A stretch of 64,000 nt of DNA, taken from contig PLCN01000025.1 of the NCBI GenBank assembly GCA_003134785.1, forward strand, positions 186,001-250,000, read 5' to 3'. This DNA is from Spartobacteria bacterium (GTDB lineage: Bacteria; Verrucomicrobiota; Verrucomicrobiia; Chthoniobacterales; UBA10450). Below are positions 40,732 through 44,542 of this stretch, in pieces. The position numbers and the translations under genes are program-made. The notes under the pieces are model-generated. The model saw nothing but the letters and a program-made list of their open reading frames with translations. It was not told where the DNA came from and did not search any database. The stretch's first letter is position 1; every line of letters begins with the position of its first letter.

Positions 40732-41490
40732 TCATGAATGATTCGGCGGCAAACCATATTTTGCCCGGATCGCGCGATAGGCCGGGCGCGTCATCTGCAC
40801 TAGAATTGGACGTCGCGCGGGATCGAGCCAGCGGATCAATCGCACCAGGTCTTTCTCTGGCATCGCCGTGCAGCCGGCCGTGGGCGCAGACGGACTCTTC
40901 CAGATGTGCAGAAAGATGCAGGACCCTGCGCCCGCGATCGCAGCCGGGTTATGGTCGACGACCACGCCCCACTTATAGAGCACGTCATCCCGCCGCATCT
41001 TTTCCGCACTGCTCCAATCGACCTTCGCTACGCGCGAACGGTCGACCAGCTTGTTGTAGTAGCGCGATTTCGGATCATCGACGCCCTCGATCTTTTTTGT
41101 TAGCGCCAGATAGGGAAGTTTGACCCAGCTAGCGGAACGGGCCGGGGCATAGCCAAAGGCCGAGGTGAGGCGGAAAATTCCAGCGGGCGCTTTGTCGTCG
41201 CCTTCCTTTTTGATCGGCGCTGCGCCGAAATTCAAACGGACCAATCCACGGCCAAGTCCGAGTCCTTTCTTGCCCAACACGACCGGAATGCCAGAGCCCA
41301 ATTCCTTCCATCCCTCCTTCGATGCACGGCGCTCAAACGAACGCAAGACCCCCGTGGTCGACGTCCAGTTTTCCGCCACCACCACAATGCACTGGCGAGA
41401 ACTGCTCACCGCACTCGTCTCGGCCCAGCCTGTCGCAATGGGCCAGCTGCACATGAGCATGAGCATGAGCAAAGACATCCGAAGCTGCAC
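40732..41490 (-). CDS. L,D-transpeptidase family protein
   Basis: 'KKEGDDKAPAGIFRLTSAFGYA...GSCIFLHIWKSPSAPTAGCTAMPEKDLVRLIRWLDP' with the catalytic SxGC-type motif. Confidence 0.85.
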   Translation of the reverse strand: MQLRMSLLMLMLMCSWPIATGWAETSAVSSSRQCIVVVAENWTSTTGVLRSFERRASKEGWKELGSGIPVVLGKKGLGLGRGLVRLNFGAAPIKKEGDDKAPAGIFRLTSAFGYAPARSASWVKLPYLALTKKIEGVDDPKSRYYNKLVDRSRVAKVDWSSAEKMRRDDVLYKWGVVVDHNPAAIAGAGSCIFLHIWKSPSAPTAGCTAMPEKDLVRLIRWLDPARRPILVQMTRPAYRAIRAKYGLPPNHS

Positions 41491-41634: not shown

Positions 41635-43233
41635 ATGCCATACGACGCCTTCATCAGCTATTGCTCGGAAGACAAGAAGGTGGCCGATGCCGTTTGCGGA
41701 ACACTCGAGGCAAACAAAATCCGGTGTTGGATCGCACCGCGAGATGTCGTACCCGGGCGCACCTGGGGCTCGGCCATCGTGGATGCCATCGGCGACAGCG
41801 CCGTGATGGTGGTGATTTTTTCCAGGCATTCCAACGGCTCGCCGCAAGTAATGCGCGAGATCGAGCGCGCGGTAAACAAAGGAGTCTCGATCATTCCATT
41901 TCGGGTCGAAGCCGTGATGCCTTCGAAGGACATGGAATATTTCATCAGCAGTTGCCACTGGCTTGATGCGATGAATCCGCCGCTGGAACGACACATCGGG
42001 GAACTCGCGGATGCGATTCTTGCGTTGCAACATCGAGGTGCATCGCCGGTCAAAGAAGCGGCTCCGAAAAAATCGCAAACACGGCCAGCTGCCCTTTGGA
42101 TTTCCTTCGCCCTCGCGGCGATTCTTGCGATAGCCGCAGGCGCCTGGTTTTTTCGGCCGAAGGCAAACGACGCCGGTCCGACGGCGCAGTTGGAAAGGCC
42201 GGCGCCGAATGCGTCGGTGGTCGGGCCGCTGCTTCTCTCCTGGACAACGAAAGATCTTCCGCAGGAAAATCTTTCGTTCGAAGTCTCACTCACGCCCGCC
42301 GGCAAAGCGCCGATCGTGCAGCGCACTGCGCGCAACTCGATCGTGCCGCAAGGAGTCGAGGGAAAAATTCGCTGGAAAGTGCGCCCGATCTGGCAAAGCC
42401 CCGGGCAGCCGGAGCGAGTGGGTGCGTGGAATAAGGAGCAGGATTTCACTTACTATCCCAGCGCGCTGAACCGAATCATCGCGACGCGTACCATTCACGT
42501 TGGAACGGCTGAGCCCGATGGTTTTTTCGTTAAGCAGGACGGCGCGGAATTGACCGGTTACGAGATCGAGTTGTTGCGCGACCTTGGCACGAAGATTCTC
42601 GCGGCGCGCGGCATCGCGGCCAAGCCTGCCATCACCTACACCCGGCGAATCTGGGGCGAGGATTTTTTTCGATTACTCGAACGCGATGGCGCCGTAGATT
42701 TGATCGCGTCCGCCATCTCGATCACACCTGAGCGCGAGAAAACTTACGGACTGCTCTTCAGTGAGCCGACGCTGCAATATCCGCAGACCATGATCGCCAA
42801 GCCGGGCGTAAAACCCTTCGTGGATGGGAAGCTGGTGTTGGCTCGAGTAGGCGCGGCGGAGAAGACAACGAATGAAACCTTTGCCCGCAAGCTCCTGGGC
42901 GAAACTGCTTCCGAGCGTTTCGTGCCGTACGCGGGCAGCGGCGCCTATGATCGCATGCTGGCCGATTTGGTGGCGGAGCGGATTGATGGCGCGTTGATCG
43001 ACAAGCCTTACGCGTTGCAAAAAGTCGCTGAGCTAAAGCAGTCCATCGGAGCGGACTTGGCTCTGACTGATATCACGGCCGAAATCGTGCCCGGAATCGA
43101 GTTGGAGAAAATGGGTTTCGCGGTGCGCAAGAGCGATCGCGCGCTCTTGCAGGAAATCGACGCGCAGTTGAAAGCGACGTCGGCGACGAGAGACGGTGTG
43201 TTGAGCAAGTCGATCCCGGGCTGGAGTAAGTAA
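41635..43233 (+). CDS. TIR domain - TM - family-3 solute-binding-like receptor protein
   Basis: N-terminal TIR 'MPYDAFISYCSEDKKVADAVCGTLEANKIRCWIAPRDVVPGRTWGSAIVDAIGDSAVMVVIFSRHSNGSPQVMREIERAV'; TM 'ALWISFALAAILAIAAGAWFF'; C-terminal 'IHVGTAEPDGFFVKQDGAELTGYEIELLRDLG...DLIASAISITPEREKTYGLLFSEPTLQ'. Confidence 0.9.
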   Translation: MPYDAFISYCSEDKKVADAVCGTLEANKIRCWIAPRDVVPGRTWGSAIVDAIGDSAVMVVIFSRHSNGSPQVMREIERAVNKGVSIIPFRVEAVMPSKDMEYFISSCHWLDAMNPPLERHIGELADAILALQHRGASPVKEAAPKKSQTRPAALWISFALAAILAIAAGAWFFRPKANDAGPTAQLERPAPNASVVGPLLLSWTTKDLPQENLSFEVSLTPAGKAPIVQRTARNSIVPQGVEGKIRWKVRPIWQSPGQPERVGAWNKEQDFTYYPSALNRIIATRTIHVGTAEPDGFFVKQDGAELTGYEIELLRDLGTKILAARGIAAKPAITYTRRIWGEDFFRLLERDGAVDLIASAISITPEREKTYGLLFSEPTLQYPQTMIAKPGVKPFVDGKLVLARVGAAEKTTNETFARKLLGETASERFVPYAGSGAYDRMLADLVAERIDGALIDKPYALQKVAELKQSIGADLALTDITAEIVPGIELEKMGFAVRKSDRALLQEIDAQLKATSATRDGVLSKSIPGWSK

Positions 43234-43435: not shown

Positions 43436-44542
43436 ATGAAATTAATCGACCGCTACGTCAGCCGGCAACTCATCGTCAATCTCCTTTTCGCGATCGTCGT
43501 CCTCAGTCTGGTTCTCGTCATTGGGAATATTTTCCGGAAGCTCCTCCCGCTTCTGGTTAATCACGATTTGCCGGTCGAATACCTGGTCGGCTTCGTCGCT
43601 TACGTCCTGCCATTCTCGCTCATCTTCACCATCCCGTGGGGCCTCCTCACCGCGGTTCTGCTCGTCTTCGGCCGCCTTTCGGCCGACAACGAATTAATCG
43701 CGCTCCGTTCCAACGGCGTAAGCATCAGCCGGATTTGCATCCCACTGGTCGTGATCGCGATTCTTTGCACGGCCGCTTCCGTTTGGCTCAACGTGGACGT
43801 CGCGCCGGCGGCCCAGGAACAAATGCGCAGCACGGTTTTCAATCTCGCCACGCGCAATCCGATGGCGCTTTTCGGCAGCGACCAGATCATCGATCAATTT
43901 CCCGGCCATAAAATTTATGTCGGCAAGAAAGATGGCAACAACCTGGAGAACATCATCGTTTTTGAAATCAACGAAGATTCTATGCCGATGAAGGTGACGT
44001 ATGCCCGGACCGGTTCACTCGAGGCCGATCTGCCGAACAAACGCATTCTCATGCATCTTTTTGCGGCGCGTTATCAGCAACGCGATGATTACGACCCGTT
44101 CGATCTGAACCGGATGCGGGACGGAATCAATGTGGCTGAGGGAACGCTTCCCATCAGTCTGGAGGAGCTTTACGAAAAGGAAAAAAGGCGTGCGAGCCGC
44201 TCGATGCTCTCGCTCGAACAGCTGCTGGAGCAGTTGAAAGACAACGATCCAAAAATGCGCAGCTCGAGCCGCACCGAAATCAACAAACGTTTTTCATTTC
44301 CACTTGCCTGCATCGTCTTCGCCCTGGTCGGTGTGCCGCTGGGGATCACCGCGCATCGTCGCGAGACTTCCTTTGGCTTCGCCATGAGTCTCGTCATCGG
44401 CGTTTTTTATTTTCTCTTCATCATCATCGCCGACACCTTGCGGTCCAACGCGAAGCTGCATCCCGAGCTTCTGGTCTGGTTCCCAAACCTGCTCTTTCTC
44501 GTCCTGGGGATCTGGATGTTTCGGCGGCTGAGCAAGCAGTGA
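43436..44542 (+). CDS. LptF/LptG (YjgP/YjgQ) family permease
   Basis: 'MKLIDRYVSRQLIVNLLFAIVVLSLVLVIGNIFRKL...FSFPLACIVFALVGVPLGITAHRRETSFGFAMSLVIGVFYFLFI'. Confidence 0.93.
   Translation: MKLIDRYVSRQLIVNLLFAIVVLSLVLVIGNIFRKLLPLLVNHDLPVEYLVGFVAYVLPFSLIFTIPWGLLTAVLLVFGRLSADNELIALRSNGVSISRICIPLVVIAILCTAASVWLNVDVAPAAQEQMRSTVFNLATRNPMALFGSDQIIDQFPGHKIYVGKKDGNNLENIIVFEINEDSMPMKVTYARTGSLEADLPNKRILMHLFAARYQQRDDYDPFDLNRMRDGINVAEGTLPISLEELYEKEKRRASRSMLSLEQLLEQLKDNDPKMRSSSRTEINKRFSFPLACIVFALVGVPLGITAHRRETSFGFAMSLVIGVFYFLFIIIADTLRSNAKLHPELLVWFPNLLFLVLGIWMFRRLSKQ

Follow-up and report, generated by a model that had tools for sequence, protein, structure and literature searches.

The stretch of DNA analysed here, 64,000 nucleotides in length (the window), belongs to a soil verrucomicrobial bacterium, and its relatives, all of them Spartobacteria MAGs, come from palsa. 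At positions 41635..43233 of the plus strand, exactly where a preliminary description had placed it, the window carries a single ORF of 532 aa encoding a TIR domain, one TM helix, a beta-rich domain and an SBP_bac_3 domain in this order, and the gene, hereafter TIR-SBP, is supported by its translation, by Pfam and NCBIfam matches and by purifying selection. Its divergent neighbour (40732..41490, minus strand) encodes a YkuD-type L,D-transpeptidase, which Pfam, synteny and a family-wide search with a tree identify as ancestral at the locus. The right-hand flank is formed by an LptF/LptG-family permease gene (43436..44542, plus strand; Pfam, synteny), which adjoins the L,D-transpeptidase gene where TIR-SBP is absent. 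The flanks are conserved in the order MMPL, FAD oxidoreductase, L,D-transpeptidase, [TIR-SBP], LptF, so that TIR-SBP is surrounded by genes for envelope and housekeeping functions. Its immediate neighbours include neither an effector nor a recognised defence gene, and this neighbourhood lends no support to a defence-island reading.

The N-terminal domain, predicted to be cytoplasmic (residues 1-135; 41635..42039, plus strand), matches TIR_2 over residues 6-113 with an E value of 8.8e-21 (75 bits versus a Pfam cut-off of 28 bits), and its best solved relative by sequence is a metazoan TIR-STING. In an AlphaFold2 model based on a mixed alignment, pLDDT exceeds 90 across most of the domain. Foldseek recovers a TIR fold that resembles the NADase TIRs of SARM1, AbTir, SPARTA and RUN1/plants and also the scaffold TIRs of MyD88, MAL and TLR, two classes that this comparison is unable to separate. 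A TIR domain had been expected from the sequence, together with a Glu in 'SPQVMREIERA' near the catalytic place; this residue is E75 (window positions ~41857-41859, plus strand), and profile alignment sets it exactly on E74 of Cat1 and S69 on Cat1 S68. Both Cat1 residues line the NADase site, and alanine mutants of both are defective in vivo (PMC12162218). S69, R74 and E75 are among the positions that never vary in an alignment of 27 TIR domains from the bacterial family. With its catalytic Glu at the SARM1/Cat1 position, the domain is a predicted member of the TIR NADases. Cat1 D33, however, aligns with A34, and for the second-subunit active-site residues K121 and Y122 no counterpart was matched in TIR-SBP. 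The 4.4-Mb genome of the window (G000) contains 13 TIR_2 matches, TIR-SBP included, an unusually large TIR set.

These alignments bear on a reading in which the TIR is itself no NADase and serves as the scaffold of a ligand-gated sensor, recruiting another TIR or a partner as in MyD88/TLR signalling. Such a role would fit the MyD88, MAL and TLR matches, the replacement of Cat1 D33 by A34 and the missing Cat1/AbTir Trp described below, and the 12 other TIR matches in the genome could provide partners. However, scaffold TIRs need not keep the Glu, whereas both E75 and S69 are retained in all 27 homologs, whose C-termini differ widely, and an adaptor gene is absent from the locus. We regard a pure scaffold as unlikely, although it is an alternative to be reckoned with.

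For a TIR enzyme, the type of product can also be considered. Where Cat1 has a Trp four residues before the Glu, TIR-SBP has Q71, and we take this to be the position, relative to the catalytic Glu, of the cyclisation Trp of AbTir as well. In AbTir, a Trp is needed for cyclisation (PMC10937652). Because the Cat1 Trp position is occupied by Q71, mainly hydrolysis to ADP-ribose and nicotinamide is predicted rather than cyclisation, and the enzyme, if active, is more likely a hydrolase than a cyclase. In Thoeris, bacterial TIRs produce a messenger for a separate effector, and ligand-bound TIR-SBP could similarly make cyclic or linear ADP-ribose as a signal. The ThsB_TIR and Thoeris profiles do match the domain, weakly and below cut-off, but the Gln at the AbTir Trp position and the absence of an effector neighbour make this an improbable mode of action. 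With the ThsB models below cut-off and no ThsA neighbour at the locus, the gene is not assigned to Thoeris, nor was there a good match among defence-system models. A search of the eight genus genomes for ThsA-type STALD proteins, which yielded no positive-control match, was empty.

The sole hydrophobic segment of the protein forms a predicted single TM helix (residues ~152-172; 42088..42150, plus strand), with a KD mean of 2.2 over residues 152-170. In line with the preliminary description, it follows a basic stretch: five K/R residues to one D/E precede it and three to two follow, a distribution consistent with N-inside topology. Beyond the helix lies a ~95-aa beta-rich domain, predicted to be extracytoplasmic (residues 181-275; 42175..42459, plus strand), for which AlphaFold2 models give pLDDT values of mostly 78-92 at residues ~210-280. 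The linker had been described as beta-rich, about 90 aa long and Fn3-like. Its length and beta content are borne out by the confident model; the Fn3 label is unsupported and was set aside, because the domain (~90-95 aa) matches neither a Pfam family nor the sequence of a solved structure.

Residues 276-532 (42460..43230, plus strand) make up the anticipated SBP_bac_3 domain. Pfam assigns it at residues 293-517 (E 3.3e-10; 40 bits versus a cut-off of 26.4), the NCBIfam model for lysine/arginine/ornithine SBPs covers residues 285-517 (7e-15), and among solved structures the nearest in sequence are ancestral cationic-amino-acid-binding proteins. This half was poorly modelled in the full-length AlphaFold2 model from the mixed alignment. 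A second model of residues 181-532, based on 31 locus-derived relatives, reached a mean pLDDT of 83.5 and a pTM of 0.78, and by Foldseek its SBP shows the two-lobed PBP fold, with L-Arg-, LAO-, Gln- and Glu-binding proteins as the nearest matches (E ~1e-13 to ~4e-14; TMt up to 0.80). Across 32 SBP_3 domains, R367 and D456 do not vary, and they align with an Arg and an Asp of AncCDT-1; they presumably represent the family positions R77 and D161 of LAO, which hold the alpha-carboxylate and alpha-amino groups of the ligand. An earlier alignment became misaligned when GluR0-like SBPs were added, and it was dropped. Several genomes of the genus, the window's own not among them, encode a GluR0-like SBP3 ligand-gated channel (L083-L087), either instead of TIR-SBP or as well.

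The SBP of an ABC transporter is free or lipid-anchored, has a signal peptide and is encoded with an ABC permease. TIR-SBP instead starts with a TIR domain and a TM helix, is the single SBP_bac_3 match in the window's genome, and the flanking genes examined encode neither a permease nor an ATPase of an amino-acid ABC transporter, so that a transporter component was rejected. Since no other SBP_bac_3 domain was found in the genome, the protein is most naturally read as a one-protein receptor. Of such a receptor, proposed earlier, all structural parts are supported, namely a TIR with a Glu at the catalytic position, one TM helix and a PBP-fold SBP with the presumed ligand-anchoring Arg and Asp; the immediate neighbourhood, which lacks an effector or recognised defence gene, adds nothing to it. 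Class-3 SBPs act as built-in periplasmic sensors in BvgS/EvgS kinases, in GluR0-type channels and in MltF; TIR-SBP shares this sensor and differs in that its output domain is a TIR, as far as we found a new output for the class. SBP_3-type domains are common as receptor sensors (PMC9602780).

We consider it about an even chance that TIR-SBP is a ligand-gated, oligomerisation-dependent membrane TIR NADase that acts as a one-protein receptor, for which we infer topology, ligand class, gated NADase activity and physiological role. The periplasmic SBP would bind a small amino-acid-like ligand, with R367 and D456 holding its alpha-carboxylate and alpha-amino groups. Closure of the SBP would be passed on via the beta stalk and the single TM helix and gather the cytoplasmic TIR domains, which, once assembled, would hydrolyse NAD+ via E75. 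The hydrolysis might then slow or kill the cell, or change its state, and the receptor may serve phage defence, a response to products of lysis or the sensing of nutrient state.

Between the intact copies in G000 and a second genome of the genus (G021), dN/dS is 0.06 in the TIR and 0.064 in the SBP, compared to 0.13 in the beta domain, 0.39 in the TM/linker region and 0.108 in the neighbouring LptF gene. Both ends of the protein are under strong purifying selection, and with values of ~0.06 in TIR and SBP the gene is real and both ends are needed. Full or split copies are found in four of the eight genus genomes (G000, G021, G022 and G023); the copy of G023 is split across two contigs, and the single copy of G022 has lost 4 nt in the linker, a frameshift that may reflect an error in the MAG. 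In G020 the gene is reduced to about 44 codons at its 3′ end. G024, within the genus, and G037, outside it, lack the gene and show a gap of about 100 bp from the transpeptidase gene to the LptF gene. The remnant, the absence in G024 and the frameshift indicate that TIR-SBP is dispensable. Its patchy occurrence, with the same frameshift and remnant, could also be taken for a decaying or chance fusion without a signalling role that is kept by linkage. This we hold to be very improbable, given a dN/dS of about 0.06 in both domains and the re-use of the SBP part with a caspase elsewhere.

This re-use emerged from a scan for close relatives across 85,462 species genomes, which returned only two orthologs and one Nitrospira MAG. 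The protein of Nitrospira sp. LK70 (L041:4062-6071; 669 aa) consists of a signal-peptide-like helix (residues 12-30), a Peptidase_C14 domain (E 5e-16) and, directly thereafter, a linker+SBP that is 67% identical to that of TIR-SBP. The nearest relative of its caspase (56%), from another Nitrospira, has a different tail of charged, coiled-coil-like low complexity. Because the linker+SBP replaces the tail of a secreted caspase-like protein, it is a mobile cassette, exchanged in one piece between two types of conflict effectors. No TM helix lies between caspase and SBP, a point against the receptor reading, since transmembrane signalling is then no requirement for the cassette. Other copies of the cassette were found neither in 213 genomes of the order nor in 388 of the phylum nor in 246 of the Nitrospira phylum. 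A phage or plasmid origin was set aside: viral contigs contained no relative, and the plasmid collection only generic SBPs of ~30% identity. The Nitrospira contig may be misbinned; its caspase half is, however, Nitrospira-like. On this contig, a second caspase gene and a lysozyme-like gene lie beside the fusion gene, with transposase-like ORFs around them.

An L,D-transpeptidase gene (L041:9566-10306) is located 3.5 kb from the Nitrospira caspase-SBP gene, with none in the other genomes among 79 Nitrospira, and an L,D-transpeptidase gene adjoins TIR-SBP in every genome whose left flank was examined. This coincidence, and a fold nearest to Arg-, LAO-, Glu- and Gln-binding proteins, would suit a nutrient or cell-wall state sensor outside defence, whose SBP reads free or peptidoglycan-derived amino acids, whose TIR tunes NAD+ or growth, and whose ligand is supplied or modified by the L,D-transpeptidase. 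The transpeptidase, however, is ancestral and retained where TIR-SBP is missing, and in the tree the Nitrospira enzyme, on a very long branch, does not group with those beside TIR-SBP genes, so that we give such a sensor little credence. Synteny, with the transpeptidase ancestral in Verrucomicrobia, and the tree likewise led us to reject a co-inherited cassette of L,D-transpeptidase and receptor.

The ligand-gated TIR receptor that we favour has relatives with other outer parts. In the same bacterial family, homologous TIRs of 34-54% identity (loci L004-L038) are followed immediately by one TM helix in 18 of 21 cases, and their C-terminal domains are OmpH, WD40, YARHG, F5/8 (NADase_transloc), SH3, TPR or unassigned. 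TIR-SBP can thus be classed by sequence as one member of a TIR-TM-variable-domain family of Chthoniobacterales (TIR-TM-X), with which it shares TIR and TM while the outer domains differ; the constant TIR-TM part and variable C-termini point to a receptor family with swapped outer domains. Among these homologs an SBP occurs in TIR-SBP alone, and of the outer domains seen in the family it is the most clearly ligand-binding one.

This family, the Nitrospira caspase fusion and a published caspase-TM-PBP precedent go beyond the preliminary description. Caspase-TM-PBP proteins have been described, mainly from actinobacteria, as caspase conflict 'System 4' (EACC1) (eLife 2020, PMC7159879), and metacaspase-ANF_receptor and metacaspase-CHASE2 proteins are known as well (PMC3501461). 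System 4 resembles TIR-SBP in joining a conflict effector to an extracellular PBP domain and in combining a constant effector with variable C-termini. It differs in its phyla and in that TIR-SBP has a TIR in place of the caspase; no EACC1 partner was recognised, in a comparison made without an EACC1 profile. A caspase is absent from TIR-SBP and from the flanking genes given to Pfam, and we do not assign the protein to System 4. Cat1 (CARF-TIR), TIR-STING, TIR-SAVED and SPARTA likewise have a TIR NADase set by an attached sensor, but they sense cytoplasmic nucleotides or nucleic acids, whereas TIR-SBP is membrane-bound with a predicted outside sensor. To our knowledge, bacterial TIR immune proteins with characterised triggers sense signals within the cell. 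The combination of TIR and SBP_bac_3 had been thought undescribed; we found no report of such a fusion in the open-access literature, although precedents exist for each part and the coupling of PBP sensors to conflict effectors is known in outline.

Animal Toll-like and IL-1 receptors are, like TIR-SBP, single-span membrane proteins that sense outside the cytoplasm and carry a TIR within it. In TIR-SBP, by contrast, the TIR occupies the N-terminus, sensing falls to a PBP-fold amino-acid-binding domain rather than to LRR or Ig, and the Glu suggests an enzyme. The outer parts are not homologous, and the layout is convergent only.

More tentatively, and on balance we think it doubtful, the family could form a bacterial class of Toll-like receptors, in which a constant TIR-TM part carries interchangeable periplasmic sensors and an amino-acid ligand from outside, possibly derived from cell walls or lysis, switches on NAD+ hydrolysis inside. 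With the sensor cassette also present in caspase-type effectors of another phylum, outside-sensing danger receptors would then be combinations of a conflict effector and a common binding protein. If this is true, gating of a TIR across a membrane would become testable with a purified ligand, and TIR-SBP would exemplify the assembly of a TLR-like layout from widespread components. Through a single sensor cassette that is exchanged between a TIR and a caspase output, two types of immune effectors would be tied to one outside cue.
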